A DNA stretch of 37,543 nucleotides, taken from positions 72,778 through 110,320 of the forward strand of contig JAUYKA010000035.1 of assembly GCA_030698495.1 (NCBI GenBank), written 5' to 3'. The stretch is from a bacterium (GTDB lineage Bacteria > Patescibacteriota > Andersenbacteria > UBA10190). The notes under the pieces are model-generated. The model had not been told where the DNA came from, did not search any database, and saw only the letters and a program-made list of their open reading frames with translations. The position numbers and the translations under genes were made by a program. Shown piece after piece: positions 14,269 to 37,515 of this stretch (the stretch's first letter is position 1; every line of letters begins with the position of its first letter).

Positions 14269-15315
14269 CTAGTGTACTTCCTCCTGGCGCAAAGCCAGAC
14301 CGATCGCGGTGGTAAAATGCATCGCGTCAGCCGGTGATATTGTGGCTGCCTTGCTTTCTCGCCCGACTACCAAGTTAATCAAAGAGTTGCCAAGCTGCAC
14401 CGGTACTGACGGGAATATCTCGCTAAATACATCAACCAAACCGGGTAAATTGGCCGCGCCGCCGGAAAGAAGCACGGTTTTAATTCCGTCAGGTAAATTC
14501 AATTGAGCAATTAGTTCCTGGGCTACTTTATGCACCTGCTCCACTAATTCCAAAGTCGCTTTGCGCAATGTTGCCGCCACTTGCGGATCTTTTTCGGTGG
14601 CTCGCAAACCCACTGAAGCCTTTTTCTCCGCCGCGATGGCCGGTTGAATCTTTAACTCCTGTGCCAAATTTTGCGTTAAATCGTCTCCGCCGCGCTGAAT
14701 GCTGCCCGTAAAGCGCATCGCTCCACGGTCAAAGAAAATAATATCAGTTGCCGTGGCTCCTAAATCAACCAGCAACACACCGCTTACATCAGCCGCGTCC
14801 AACGGCAGTAAACTTCTCACAATCGCCTGCGCCTCCAACTCCAAAGCCACCACGCGCAACCCAATCATATCCAACGCGCCCAACAGAGGATCAATAACAT
14901 CTCGTTGAGCCGCTCCAACCAGCACTTGTTGGCGATTGGCGTTCCCGCTTGTATTTATTAAAGGCTGCCAGTCTAAATAAACCCGGTCCAAGTCAAAAGG
15001 AATATGGTGACGAATCGCCCACTGCACCGCTTCATCCATCTCCCTGATACTCATCTTCGGCAACTCCAGCACGCGGACAAAAGACTGTGTTTCCGGAATA
15101 GACACCACAGCGGTTCTGGAAGATACCGGCATCGGTGTGCACTTGATCAGTGCCGCCTCAATCGTCTCTCCCATTACGACCGCGTCCTGAATTACACCTC
15201 GCCTCATTAAATTAGGCGCCAACGACGACCAACATACGGTGCGCAACTTAGGCGCCATACCTCCCGCCAGTTCCACTATTTTGATTGAACGTTCAGAAAC
15301 GTCTATACCGACCAT
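14269..15315 (-). CDS. pilM: PilM-like actin-fold pilus assembly ATPase (module 2)
   Basis: VGIDVSERSIKIVEL; SIPETQSFVRVLELPKM; EAVQWAIRHHIPFDLDRVYLDWQ; LLVDLGATATDIIFFDRG; VLLSGGAANLPGL. Confidence 0.93.
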   Translation of the reverse strand: MVGIDVSERSIKIVELAGGMAPKLRTVCWSSLAPNLMRRGVIQDAVVMGETIEAALIKCTPMPVSSRTAVVSIPETQSFVRVLELPKMSIREMDEAVQWAIRHHIPFDLDRVYLDWQPLINTSGNANRQQVLVGAAQRDVIDPLLGALDMIGLRVVALELEAQAIVRSLLPLDAADVSGVLLVDLGATATDIIFFDRGAMRFTGSIQRGGDDLTQNLAQELKIQPAIAAEKKASVGLRATEKDPQVAATLRKATLELVEQVHKVAQELIAQLNLPDGIKTVLLSGGAANLPGLVDVFSEIFPSVPVQLGNSLINLVVGRESKAATISPADAMHFTTAIGLALRQEEVH

Positions 15316-16876: not shown

Positions 16877-17911
16877 TCAAAGTATCACCGGCCTAAGCGC
16901 CAGCCCCAGCGCCGTTGAATAATGAACCGATTCGGCCAATCCCATCGGTTGAGTGGGATCGCCCGTCGGCATGATGTTAACCCAAGGATTACCGCGCTGG
17001 ATATGCACATTGTCAAAATAACGCAGAAAAACAGCATCCAACCCGGGCAGATTCGATCCTCCTCCGGTTAAAAGGACTTCATTAATCCAGCGATCTTTTC
17101 TGGGTCGAGTATAATACTCGACGATGCCGTGAGCCTCCGCCACTAAAGCTTCTAAATCAGCTTTGATACGCTGATACATTTTCTCCGGTACGGCGCTTTC
17201 CGACTGCGTCGAAATCTTCTTAATCTGTTCCTGTTCAATCTCGGACAAATTTGCCAATACCCCCTCCACCCCCCGGCTTAAGCTGGCCGAGAACCGAATC
17301 GTACCGCGATCGTGAATCACCACATTTGTGGTATCACTGCCCAAATCAACTACCAACAATCCGGCCCGCCGGGACAACTCCGGCGAAATTAAAGCCCTGA
17401 TAAACGCCTGACTTTCTAATTCCAAAGCCGCCACATCTAGCCCTAACGATGACAAAACACTCCACAACGGATCCACCACTTTTTTCTCCGCCGCGCCCAC
17501 CAATACCTCATGCTTGCCGCTTGTCTTTTTATCGCTCCGTCTAACCCACTGCCAATCCAAATAAACATTTTCCAGTCCGAAAGGTATATGCTGCGCCACC
17601 TCCCACTGCACCGCTTCACCTATTTCCGATTCATCCATAGTTGGTATTTGCACAACCTGCAAGAAAGATTCCGCCTCCGGAATTGAAGCTACTACCGCGT
17701 CCTTCACACGCAACGACAGTTTGCCCCGCCGAAACAATTCCACTATTGCTTTCTGCACCGCCTCCGGCGTCTTTACTACTCCACGCTCAATCACCCCTTC
17801 CGGCAAATCCACCCAGCTGTAAGTCTCCAGACGATGCTGTCTGTCGTTACCCAAACGCACCATTTTTATTGAACGCTCCGATATATCAATACCGATCATA
17901 CAAAATTCCAA
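16877..17911 (-). CDS. pilM: PilM-like actin-fold pilus assembly ATPase (module 1)
   Basis: IGIDISERSIKMVRL; EAVQWEVAQHIPFGLENVYLDWQ; LLVVDLGSDTTNVVIHDRG; VLLTGGGSNLPGL. Confidence 0.94.
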   Translation of the reverse strand: MEFCMIGIDISERSIKMVRLGNDRQHRLETYSWVDLPEGVIERGVVKTPEAVQKAIVELFRRGKLSLRVKDAVVASIPEAESFLQVVQIPTMDESEIGEAVQWEVAQHIPFGLENVYLDWQWVRRSDKKTSGKHEVLVGAAEKKVVDPLWSVLSSLGLDVAALELESQAFIRALISPELSRRAGLLVVDLGSDTTNVVIHDRGTIRFSASLSRGVEGVLANLSEIEQEQIKKISTQSESAVPEKMYQRIKADLEALVAEAHGIVEYYTRPRKDRWINEVLLTGGGSNLPGLDAVFLRYFDNVHIQRGNPWVNIMPTGDPTQPMGLAESVHYSTALGLALRPVIL

Positions 17912-17968
17912 AGTTTATTAGACAACTATAGTATAACTCATCATCCCCGGTTTATACATTTGTAAAGA

Positions 17969-18060
17969 AGTAAATACAGTAAATTCAGCAAGTACAGTGA
18001 ATACAGCTACTGTATTTACTTAATTTACTGCTCTCGCTGTATTTACTGTAATCACTGTTC
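17969..18060. repeat. 9-bp minisatellite arranged as an inverted repeat
   Basis: AGTAAATAC AGTAAATTC AGCAAGTAC AGTGAATAC AGC / TACTGTATTTACTTAATTTACTGCTCTCGCTGTATTTACTGTAATCACTG. Confidence 0.85.
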
Positions 18061-19479
18061 CTCCTCCCAAGAAATAAACTCATACTGCCCGCTGGTGGGG
18101 AAATACGGCGGCGGCGCGTATCTAAAGTTATAGTCATAAGACCGCGTTACCTCTGGATAACCGCTGGTAACATCGTCGCTACCGCCCACCCAAGTCACAT
18201 CCACCGTCAACACGTTCATTGCTATCATTCCGTAGATTGTCAGACTAGTCTTTATGGCGTGTTCCGCCGTATCACCGGAATTTTCGTAAAAACGCCGGCC
18301 GAAACCTCCTTTCTGCGCCACAAACGCTCCATTCATTTCCAACACGTCATCCGCCCCTGACCAGGGAATTAAAATATCCCGCTGCGCTATTACCCCCAGT
18401 GCCCGGCTGCCGTCCTTGACGCCATCATAAGTCAGCGATCCGTTTATAATCACGTCCACGTTCGTTCCATTCGCATCGGGAAACACCCCTGCCCCCACCG
18501 TCACCCTGGTGTGCACGTGTCCCTCTATCCACAATGTGTCTTCAAAATACAGCGCGCCCGCGTCCGGTATATCTTTGGTTTCAATAAACTCCTCCTCGGC
18601 AATATCATGTGATAGTTTCTCCCGCTTTTGCACACCGTTCACAATTGCCTTTGACCAAATCTTCGGCGCCTTCTCCGTCACTCGGTAAACCGTATAAGTA
18701 TTATTCTCATTTAACACCAGGTGATATCCTTCGGCGTGAGAAGAATCATAATATGACCCCGCCTCATCCGCGACTTCTTGAATATTAAGCAAATCCAACG
18801 TTAGCCCCGCGTAGTTGACCGGCGCCACCGGATACTCCCACAACTCCTGTATCTGCCCCGCCCCCCAAACGCCGGGCTTTATCAGACCAGAACCACACCC
18901 ATGATACCACTTACAAGTGTATGTTTCCTTGGCGCTAGTCATTTTACTATCAGACGTTCCGTCCATCCGAATACCTCCATTGGCGTGCACCACGCCATGC
19001 AATACGTCCATCGGGCCAAACCAGTAGTCGTCATTATAAACCGCACTGTACTGCGCTAGCGACGGCCGGCCGTACCGCGCCTTTAACGTCACTTCCCGAT
19101 GCGGCAGCGCCGCTGTTTGCCCCACGGAAGTAATAGTCACCGCTGTGCTACCCGTCGTCGGCTCGGTAAAACTGACATCGTACTCACCTAAGCTCCCCGC
19201 CAGCTGGTCATTTACTTCTCTTGTTTCCGAAGCGTAGTTCTCCGGATTATGCGCCAAGCGCCACCGGGCGTAATTTAAACCGGCCTCCGCTATTTGAAAC
19301 GCCTCCTCATCCTGCGCCTGTATTACACTCTCGTGATAGGTACGATTAACTAATCCTGTCAGCGCAATAAAAATCACCGCGAACATAAACACAAAAACCA
19401 TCGTCATAATCAAAAGCCCACCACGCTGACACGGCCCAGTAACCGATCCACGGCTCCATAAAAAAATCCTCCCCATCAA
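18052..19479 (-). CDS. PilX-like type IV pilus-associated secreted protein (475 aa)
   Basis: N-terminal hydrophobic GGLLIMTMVFVFMFAVIFIALTGLVNRTYHESVIQAQDEEAFQIAEAGLNYARWRL resembles PilX N-terminal proteins. Confidence 0.8.
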   Translation of the reverse strand: MMGRIFLWSRGSVTGPCQRGGLLIMTMVFVFMFAVIFIALTGLVNRTYHESVIQAQDEEAFQIAEAGLNYARWRLAHNPENYASETREVNDQLAGSLGEYDVSFTEPTTGSTAVTITSVGQTAALPHREVTLKARYGRPSLAQYSAVYNDDYWFGPMDVLHGVVHANGGIRMDGTSDSKMTSAKETYTCKWYHGCGSGLIKPGVWGAGQIQELWEYPVAPVNYAGLTLDLLNIQEVADEAGSYYDSSHAEGYHLVLNENNTYTVYRVTEKAPKIWSKAIVNGVQKREKLSHDIAEEEFIETKDIPDAGALYFEDTLWIEGHVHTRVTVGAGVFPDANGTNVDVIINGSLTYDGVKDGSRALGVIAQRDILIPWSGADDVLEMNGAFVAQKGGFGRRFYENSGDTAEHAIKTSLTIYGMIAMNVLTVDVTWVGGSDDVTSGYPEVTRSYDYNFRYAPPPYFPTSGQYEFISWEEEQ

Positions 19480-19486
19480 TAACCAT

Positions 19487-19635
19487 TATAAGTAAATAAA
19501 GTAAATACAGCGAGGACAGCAAGTTCAGTTAATACAGTAAATACAGCGAGGACAGTGAATACAGCTGCTGTACTCGCTGTATTTACTTAATTCACTGTAT
19601 TCACTGTATTCACTGAATTTACTGTATTTACTGGT
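19487..19635. repeat. 9-bp minisatellite arranged as a long inverted repeat
   Basis: About 8 units of AGTAAATAC-type followed by about 8 units of CTGTATTTA/CTGTATTCA-type in opposite orientation. Confidence 0.88.
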
Positions 19636-19636
19636 G

Positions 19637-21202
19637 TCACCGCCAACTCCTAAGCCAAAACAGGTTATCAGCCCACCATGTCGGCACAGCCAAACCGTAT
19701 GTCAGCGGACTAAACACTACAAACACAATTGCCACTGCTATCAAAACAGTGATCCACACCTTCCTCCGACGCGACTCGTCCCACCCGGCCGTATCGAACG
19801 CGCGCTGCAGCCATAACACCACAATCAACATCGCGAAGATAAGCGCCGTAAAATAATGATATAAAAACAACGCTCGCGGCACGTCAATTAAAGGTCCCAA
19901 AGCAATAACATACCCCATTACAGGTATCCACAAATTAACCGAGCTCACTGTATTTACTGTCCTTGCCTTGCCCGCCATAGCTTTATGCGAAGGCGAGGCC
20001 TTGCCCGCCATAGCTTTATGCGAAGGCTGGGCCTTGCCCGCCATAGCTTTATGCGAAGGCTGGGCTGTATTCACTGTATTTACTGAATTCACTGTACTCG
20101 CTGTCCGGTCCTGTCCGTACCGAACTACCGACAAAACAATAATTATTAACAACATAAGATTTGTTCCCCACCAAACCAGCGGATTACCAAGCAAATAAAT
20201 CATCCGCCCGGCTTCCTGCCAGTAAAAGATGGGACGCTCCATTAAAAGCCAGCTCCACCAGGCACTGGCGTAAGGATGCGTCGCCGTCAGATGATAATTG
20301 GCATCAAACATAACCTTATGCAGCGCGACCGTCTCTCTGATAAACGTTATCGGCAGTGCCCCGCCGGAAAAATCCGGCCTGTAAAAAGCGTCGCCGCCTC
20401 CCGGCGCGGACAACAGCGCGAAATGCAACGCCCAACCGGCCGCATAAACAACAGACGCGCAAAAAACAATCAACAGTCCCGCTAAAATATAATGGCGTAT
20501 CATTCTGTATTTACTGTCCTCGCTTTGCCCGCCATAGCCTCTGGCGAAGGCCGGGCTGTCCTCGCTAAAACATGTCCGCAGCAACCGCACCGCTATAATC
20601 ACACCCAGCAATCCCAGTATCGCCAAGCCGGTAAACTTTACCCCAACCGCCAAACCCGCCCAACCGCCGGCCAAACCGAAACCAACCCAGCGCTTCCACC
20701 CATACCATTTTTCATCCGACTTTAAGAACAGTAACAAACTGCTAAAAATCGCTAACAACAATATACTGTCCAGTGAAATCAACCGTGCTTGCACCGTCAA
20801 AGCATTATCCAATAGAACCAAACCTGCCGATGCCGCCGCCGCCCAGGGCCGCGCTCCCAACTGTCTGGCTAACCAAAATACGACTAGAGGCAATAAAGTG
20901 CCCGCCAATGCCGGTACAAAACGCAGCGCCGTTATCGGCACACTGCCATACGGCTCCCCGATATGATCGAAATCAAACCCGCCTCGGTATCCCCCTAAAT
21001 ACGCGACGCCCGCGACTAATAACTTGGCGTGCGGCGGATGAATATCAAAAAACCGCTCACCGGTACAGCAATATGCCGTGACAAACTTGCCAAAATGCAC
21101 CTCGTCAAACACCACCTCGCGCGGCTTGTTCAAACTAATAAAATGCAGTGCCAGACTGACTACCAGCAGCCCAATAATCAGCCATTTATCAGTTTTGCTC
21201 AT
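19637..21202 (-). CDS. Pmt-family (GT39-like) protein O-mannosyltransferase
   Basis: DEVHFGKFVTAYCCTGERFFDIHPPHAKLL; LVLLDNALTVQARLISLDSILLL; PRALFLYHYFTALIFAMLIVV; multi-TM. Carries in-frame repeats (see findings). Confidence 0.88.
   Translation of the reverse strand: MSKTDKWLIIGLLVVSLALHFISLNKPREVVFDEVHFGKFVTAYCCTGERFFDIHPPHAKLLVAGVAYLGGYRGGFDFDHIGEPYGSVPITALRFVPALAGTLLPLVVFWLARQLGARPWAAAASAGLVLLDNALTVQARLISLDSILLLAIFSSLLLFLKSDEKWYGWKRWVGFGLAGGWAGLAVGVKFTGLAILGLLGVIIAVRLLRTCFSEDSPAFARGYGGQSEDSKYRMIRHYILAGLLIVFCASVVYAAGWALHFALLSAPGGGDAFYRPDFSGGALPITFIRETVALHKVMFDANYHLTATHPYASAWWSWLLMERPIFYWQEAGRMIYLLGNPLVWWGTNLMLLIIIVLSVVRYGQDRTASTVNSVNTVNTAQPSHKAMAGKAQPSHKAMAGKASPSHKAMAGKARTVNTVSSVNLWIPVMGYVIALGPLIDVPRALFLYHYFTALIFAMLIVVLWLQRAFDTAGWDESRRRKVWITVLIAVAIVFVVFSPLTYGLAVPTWWADNLFWLRSWR
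19949..20105. repeat. composite repeat: three 33-bp units flanked by 9-bp minisatellite, inside an ORF
   Basis: GCCTTGCCCGCCATAGCTTTATGCGAAGGC at 19965, 19998 and 20031 (33-bp period), flanked by CACTGTATTTACTGT... units. Confidence 0.93.
20507..20568. repeat. second composite repeat copy inside the same ORF
   Basis: CTGTATTTACTGTCCTCGCTTTGCCCGCCATAGCCTCTGGCGAAGGCCGGGCTGTCCTCGC. Confidence 0.85.
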
Positions 21203-30204: not shown

Positions 30205-30327
30205 CTGTATTCACTGTATTTACTGTACTCGCCTTGCCCGCCATAGCTTTATGCGAAGGCTGGCCTTGCCCGCCATAGCTTTATGCGAAGGCTGGCCTTG
30301 CCCGCCATAGCTTTATGCGAAGGCTGG
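30205..30327. repeat. composite repeat: 9-bp units plus three 32-bp units (intergenic)
   Basis: GCCTTGCCCGCCATAGCTTTATGCGAAGGC at 30231, 30263 and 30295 (32-bp period), preceded by CTGTATTCACTGTATTTACTGTACTC. Confidence 0.93.
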
Positions 30328-30331
30328 GCCG

Positions 30332-31381
30332 TTATTGCGGGCACCAGCAAGCAAACTGTCCCGGGACACCTGAAGCATCCCCACAAGACGGTGATTTGCT
30401 AAAAGGCCTTCCGCTAACCCCATTACCGCACCAAGTACCATTCCAACAATCCCTGTATAAAGACGCGTAGTCATCCGCTCCGGCAACATCTTGAACTTCC
30501 AGACCGCTCGGAATACTCGCGCCCTTGCAATTGCAATAGGCATCCACAACAGTTGTCCCGTCCCACTCAAACCCCACCGACCAATTACAACATCCGTCCG
30601 GCGGCGTATTATGATAGTCACAATAATTCAAACAGGCGCTAAATGCCGGGGCGACAAAATCATCATCATAATTGTAGAAAAACGGCTCCGCATCCGGCAG
30701 GAAAATTCCTCCCGACTGTTCACACACCAAACCTTCGCACATCCCTTCCGCGCAAATCTCACTCCTTATCGTAACCGATGTTTTTACGTCAAAGGGAGAC
30801 GGCGGCTGATTTATATCAAAATCAATCACCAAATCTATTTCAACTCTAGCCACTTGTGCCGGATCAATTGTTTGCACCCCCGCGTCGTTATAATAAACAA
30901 ACACGGCTTTGCTCTCCCCCACCGTTCTGTTTCTAACTGTCCTGGCAATCACTTCCGGATCACTCGCCGTCCCCGAACAAGCATCCTCTGTCACTTGACG
31001 CATCAAATTCGTTGAATCCTCATCAATGTAATATCGCACTTTCTCCGGCGCGCTGTCGCCGTCAACATTACTAATAACCTCAATACTATAAGGATCAACT
31101 TGGCTTAACCATAAAGTATCATCAGTATATCCATCTCCGTCGCAATCTATCGGACGAGAATTGCGAATAATATCAGCCACCCGTTCTATTTGCAAACGCG
31201 CGTCTTCCGTCGTTTTGGCTTGTTCAAAACTTCGTCTGGATATATTAAACGCAAAGCCTACAAACATAACCATTGCCACTATTAAAAGCGCGCCTATAGC
31301 AATCACTATCAAAAACTCAATCAGCGAGAACCCGGTAGCATCGATACGCTTTTCCCAATTAAATCCTCTCATAACCTTCAA
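30332..31381 (-). CDS. PilW-like prepilin with Cys-rich C-terminal domain (cassette B)
   Basis: ATGFSLIEFLIVIAIGALLIVAMVMFVGFAFNISRRSFEQAKTTEDARLQIERV; C-terminus CCNWSVGFEWDG..DAYCNCKG..DCWNGTWCG. Confidence 0.9.
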   Translation of the reverse strand: MKVMRGFNWEKRIDATGFSLIEFLIVIAIGALLIVAMVMFVGFAFNISRRSFEQAKTTEDARLQIERVADIIRNSRPIDCDGDGYTDDTLWLSQVDPYSIEVISNVDGDSAPEKVRYYIDEDSTNLMRQVTEDACSGTASDPEVIARTVRNRTVGESKAVFVYYNDAGVQTIDPAQVARVEIDLVIDFDINQPPSPFDVKTSVTIRSEICAEGMCEGLVCEQSGGIFLPDAEPFFYNYDDDFVAPAFSACLNYCDYHNTPPDGCCNWSVGFEWDGTTVVDAYCNCKGASIPSGLEVQDVAGADDYASLYRDCWNGTWCGNGVSGRPFSKSPSCGDASGVPGQFACWCPQ

Positions 31382-37473: not shown

Positions 37474-37515
37474 ACTGTATTTACTGTATTCACTGTTCTC
37501 GCTGTCCTCGCTGTT
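37474..37515. repeat. 9-bp minisatellite copy
   Basis: CTGTATTTACTGTATTCACTGTTCTCGCTGTCCTCGCTG. Confidence 0.85.

Follow-up and report, generated by a model that had tools for sequence, protein, structure and literature searches.

How does a gene for a protein O-mannosyltransferase (Pmt) come to carry, within its own reading frame, a tandem repeat that also lies between genes, and does the peptide that it encodes serve the enzyme? The question is raised by the end of contig C13 (72778-110320), a stretch of 37,543 bp referred to here as the window, which belongs to a draft genome of 1.159 Mb comprising 37 contigs and 5,469 N, with repeats at the contig end as well. The open reading frame (ORF) concerned has the PMT (PF02366, 6.6e-44) and PMT_4TMC (PF16192, 7.9e-34) domains of Pfam together with the FDE and FLYHY motifs. 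It is intact across two inserts, and the conserved stretches FDEVHFGKF, DIHPP and FLYHY are retained in the alignment with its orthologs. The features of the gene are as follows.

19637..21202, minus strand: Pmt-type protein O-mannosyltransferase ORF, 521 aa, ATG start (ORF list, profile match, orthologs)
19943..20092, minus strand: insert 1, in-frame, 50 aa (junction in ortholog G005; repeat DNA continues to ~20104)
19947..19964, minus strand: minisatellite arm of 9-bp units at the low-coordinate flank of insert 1 (sequence, repeat search)
19965..19997, minus strand: REP-like 33-bp unit, copy 1, with GAG at its end (sequence, repeat finder)
19998..20030, minus strand: REP-like 33-bp unit, copy 2 (sequence, repeat finder)
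20031..20063, minus strand: REP-like 33-bp unit, copy 3 (sequence, repeat finder)
20065..20104, minus strand: minisatellite arm of 9-bp units at the high-coordinate flank of insert 1, direct and not inverted (repeat finder)
20510..20569, minus strand: insert 2, in-frame, about 20 aa, FSEDSPAFARGYGGQSEDSK (repeat scan, ortholog alignment, frame check)

Two In-frame Inserts Absent from Orthologs

A sequence-only reading of this DNA had described an ORF that reads through three 33-bp copies with adjoining 9-bp repeats, and both the open frame and the copies starting at 19965, 19998 and 20031 were confirmed. The array (Tandem Repeats Finder: 19965-20065; period 33, 3.1 copies, 97% matches, score 188) is far beyond chance, and the 9-bp array at 20065-20104 follows it directly. 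The closest ortholog, that of G005, is 51% identical; its DNA matching Pmt residues 10-370 and 421-521 is directly adjoining, and because the alignment runs straight across, joining residue 370 to 421, insert 1 measures about 50 aa (150 bp; 19943-20092). Alignment with orthologs lacking the insert had been proposed as the way to tell it from an ancestral domain; the segment is missing from 10 of 10 aligned relatives, two of which (G004 and G003) have another, shorter sequence in this loop, and it is thus specific to the lineage.

The first reading missed a second in-frame copy in the same ORF. Insert 2 is the same composite with a single REP-like core (20527-20551), which has the direct repeat CTGTCCTCGCT on either side. 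It is read in the frame that contains TAA in the insert-1 variant, its own variant having AGA at that place. Insert 2 is likewise absent from the aligned relatives, G009 having a different sequence at the site. The composite dispersed repeat is therefore present twice in frame in Pmt and absent from ten aligned orthologs.

As had been supposed, insert 1 lies in a loop between transmembrane segments: the PMT_4TMC match is interrupted there, and alignments to orthologs and to solved yeast-type Pmt structures (6p25, 9i5k, 9e61) place both insert sites between conserved hydrophobic stretches. From the known topology of Pmt and from the positive residues around them, both loops are expected to be cytoplasmic. 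An AlphaFold2 model built from a two-row alignment had a mean pLDDT of 39.9 and was set aside. In G009, which belongs to another genus of the same family, the insert-2 loop contains an in-frame 88-bp palindromic repeat unrelated to the composite; the G009 genome has 38 matches to this repeat, whose fold reaches -50.3 kcal/mol (z = -3.9). The loop thus accepts unrelated repeats and has been struck by them in two genera, so that such inserts flag protein positions tolerating extra sequence. A second copy of the 88-bp repeat lies in G009 within a 261-codon open frame, presumably a dihydrofolate reductase.

A Dispersed Composite Repeat

The inserted element consists of a GC-rich REP-like core (A/GTAG followed by a short stem) set within an AT-rich 9-bp minisatellite, and the insert DNA has 55 matches across the genome. 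A genome search for the 25-base core GCCCGCC(A/G)TAGCnnnnnGCGAAGGC returned 21 copies at no more than 3 mismatches and zero for the reversed control. The copies are mainly intergenic and are surrounded by the 9-bp unit CAGTAAATA and its variants, or else are embedded in AT-rich or 7-bp repeats. The layout of 9-bp units, core and 9-bp units recurs at C10, C18, C19, C23 and at 30231 in the window. The short stem CCTT..AAGG follows GTAG, ATAG or GAAG, differing among copies; folded as RNA, the copies in Pmt were weakly better than shuffles (z of -2.0 and -1.8).

Strong clusters of 9-bp arrays number 58, including 17 inverted pairs. For 43 clusters the nearest gene boundary is a 3′ end, for 12 it is a 5′ end and 3 lie within genes, unlike random intergenic points, which slightly favour 5′ ends. 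Apparent 9-bp matches within genes of C2, C10, C11 and C36 were weak or due to chance. Like REPs, the element thus has many dispersed copies, mostly intergenic and 3′ of genes. The window contains the following copies outside pmt.

17968..18057, no strand: inverted 9-bp arrays containing the stop codon of ORF 18052-19479 (minus strand) (repeat scan)
19490..19633, no strand: inverted 9-bp arrays forming a long hairpin downstream of pmt (fold -62.4 kcal/mol, z = -10.4)
30208..30225, minus strand: 9-bp minisatellite adjoining the intergenic array (repeat scan)
30231..30327, no strand: intergenic array with the insert-1 unit variant, three perfect copies at a 32-bp period, immediately 3′ of gene 30332-31381 (minus strand)
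37478..37513, minus strand: 9-bp array at the contig end (repeat scan)

Inverted arrays of the 9-bp unit lie at the 3′ ends of genes, as at 17968-18057 and 19490-19633, and often include the stop codon of the gene itself; genome-wide, 18 gene stop codons fall within 9-bp clusters. Such arrays are likely to be terminator-like hairpins.

Across the genome, repeat loci of all kinds number 335 and occupy 36.2 kb or 3.12%, vs. 7 loci and 0.1% by the same method in G002, a member of the same family (Ca. Andersenbacteria) that served as the reference for insertions: a thirtyfold difference in repeat content. Called genes make up 80% of the genome and hold 27 of the 335 loci, part of these 27 being ordinary protein repeats. 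A simple core search of 96 relatives did not find a comparable expansion of the core elsewhere. In two other relatives, at locus L115 of G074 and locus L109 of G006, REP-like cores are open in frame within longer ORFs.

Reading Frame and Unit Length

On the coding strand, two frames of the 33-bp unit are open, one of which reads QPSHKAMAGKA, and the third is stopped by TAA. The array at 30231-30327 indeed has a period of 32 bp, as the first reading stated (3.0 copies, 100% matches; Tandem Repeats Finder). Since each 32-bp copy shifts the frame, none of the six frames stays free of stops through three such copies, and the array of insert 1 therefore requires a frame-compatible unit. To this extent the idea that a frame-compatible length has been fixed in the gene stands for Pmt; it fails as a general rule. 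A strict division into 33-bp genic and 32-bp intergenic periods is contradicted by genic units of 40, 44 and 7 bp and by a perfect 33-bp array between genes (C10:59180-59245) that belongs to the same family of repeats. Where the units are of 40, 44 or 7 bp, only the total length keeps the frame, so that what matters is that the whole insert be a stop-free multiple of 3. Among tandem arrays of 10-60 bp units, ordinary protein repeats included, the period is divisible by 3 for 25 of 37 in genes vs. 17 of 63 in intergenic DNA (Fisher p = 1e-4).

Inserts in Other Genes

Inspection of alignments with G002 revealed repeat-derived in-frame inserts without counterpart in that genome in about ten genes besides Pmt, and in-frame insertion into unrelated genes whose orthologs lack the insert is thus a property of these repeats. 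The inserts lie in CTP synthase (pyrG, 31 aa), TrpRS (trpS, 14 aa), UvrC (uvrC, 26 aa), PrmC (prmC, 23 aa; 44-bp unit), an IPP transferase (16 aa), an AP_endonuc_2 protein (16 aa), a GT9 protein (26 aa; 40-bp unit), a FemAB protein (about 37 aa; 40-bp unit), a membrane protein that matches no Pfam family (49 aa) and C16_11104 (in-frame 7-bp array, 25 aa). Judging by their domains, we take the IPP transferase to be miaA and the AP_endonuc_2 protein to be nfo. The inserts of CTP synthase and TrpRS were detected through the REP-like core rather than by the repeat-depth scan. Insertions of at least 10 aa relative to G002 amount to 7,020 bp, 849 bp of which are repeat DNA; for the orthologous genes overall the figure is 3,316 of 668,352 bp.

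Two candidates were rejected. The 9-bp array of DnaX is real repeat DNA, but it coincides with a linker that aligns poorly with G002 and leaves a net 8 aa. For an 8.9-kb ORF of C36 the alignment was too weak (28%) for safe calls; this ORF (C36:3-8888; 2,962 codons) contains many CATTCCGG-type repeats, translated as VIPGSDPESTGILNQVQDD.

Origin and Role of the Pmt Inserts

We consider it likely that the Pmt inserts are tolerated in-frame landings of a spreading composite repeat, that the copy in insert 1 was amplified later and that the resulting linkers have no selected function. Composites would have spread through the lineage, mostly landing 3′ of genes, with hairpin- or single-strand-based copying as the likely class of mechanism. 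Two copies would have entered Pmt loops predicted to be cytoplasmic, each as a variant and in a frame that lacks stop codons, after which the copy at 19965 would have been amplified threefold as a 33-bp unit, since three copies of a 32-bp unit could not remain open. The resulting peptides would be tolerated linkers without selected function, and the same spread would have given the in-frame inserts of about ten other genes. Apart from insert 1 itself, its unit variant occurs only in the intergenic array at a distance of 10 kb. This points to copying over a short distance, after which the two arrays would have been amplified independently, with junctions of 33 and 32 bp, respectively.

The source genome contains three Y1_Tnp (RAYT-like) genes (C36:25853-26513, C30:215-487 and C9:9061-9297). 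A cognate RAYT flanked by the composite's REP was not found among the three; since other palindromes adjoin all of them, no transposase is attributable to the composite. These small palindromes are TTCTAAACCTTAGGTTTAGAA, AAACATCGGGTGTTTGAA and CACTGCCGCAGTG, respectively, and further copies of the first two families occur elsewhere in the genome. A bolder proposal, of which we are doubtful, is that an active, lineage-specific process builds the composites and places them in essential genes at a rate that outpaces their removal by selection; protein lengths would then be undergoing reshaping by repeats that move by a mechanism so far undescribed.

The peptide of insert 1 could instead be selected, for instance as a basic and flexible linker in the cytoplasm, able to bind a partner, DNA or the membrane and tuned by the length of the array. 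Its exact amino-acid repeat (PSHKAMAGK three times), basic and located in a loop, speaks for such a role, and selection has been argued for the amino-acid tandem repeats of Borgs (PMC9879509). This peptide is, however, one frame of a repeat found genome-wide and mostly between genes, related repeats are read in other frames in unrelated genes, and relatives manage without the insert; we regard a selected role as improbable and the insertion in Pmt as probably functionless. Decay of the gene, or an artefact of assembly that would make the in-frame state accidental, is less probable still: the draft has gaps and repeats at a contig end, but the ORF has kept its conserved stretches through two inserts, copy 1 differs from copies 2 and 3 in an array of only 99 bp, and artefacts are unlikely to account for every insert seen across several core genes. 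Birth of the repeat within Pmt by slippage and later copying outward, with which the variant common only to the nearby array would agree, is very improbable given that other composite variants of the same layout lie on many contigs and that a second, separate variant lies elsewhere in the gene; the earlier proposal of simple expansion in place in coding DNA is replaced by insertion of a dispersed repeat.

Relation to Known Repeat Families

In-frame selfish repeats have so far been known mainly from Rickettsia and from certain bacteria rich in REPs. Here they lie in core genes of a small-genome, Patescibacteria-like lineage; a search of the open-licence literature found no report of in-frame repeat inserts in CPR/Patescibacteria. 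In genomes of this kind they are best masked before annotation or structure modelling.

GTAG- and CGTC-tagged REPs are short palindromes found mostly 3′ of genes, often supplying the stop codon; some lie in ORFs, twice in some genes, and their clusters encode 43-82 aa, with several DNA repair genes among the targets (PMC3733652). The repeat described here, whose core is short and perhaps palindromic, similarly lies mostly 3′ of genes, has gene stop codons within its 9-bp clusters and occurs twice in one gene. It differs in that the core lies within a 9-bp (or 7-bp) minisatellite, in a tag that varies from copy to copy (GTAG, ATAG or GAAG), in head-to-tail tandem copies and in that a linked RAYT was not found. 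Rickettsia palindromic elements (RPE) are dispersed palindromes inserted in frame into unrelated genes, core genes included (PMC3733652), and the present repeats resemble them by that description. Unlike RPE, they occur in a different phylum and are composites of short tandem units with a 9-base repeat mixed in. In Borgs, tandem units within ORFs keep the frame and are all divisible by 3, whereas intergenic units often are not (PMC9879509). The frame-keeping units and low-complexity peptides are shared with the present case; the rule of divisibility is not, given the 7-, 40- and 44-bp units within ORFs, and the units here are dispersed repeats.

Two further groups of genes were noted in the window. 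Three related, secreted-looking proteins lie near the contig end (29069-30043, 35175-36173 and 36369-37313), and the one that was scanned had no Pfam match. Two similar ORFs (14269-15315 and 16877-17911) are PilM-like in appearance, each adjoining more pilus-like genes.
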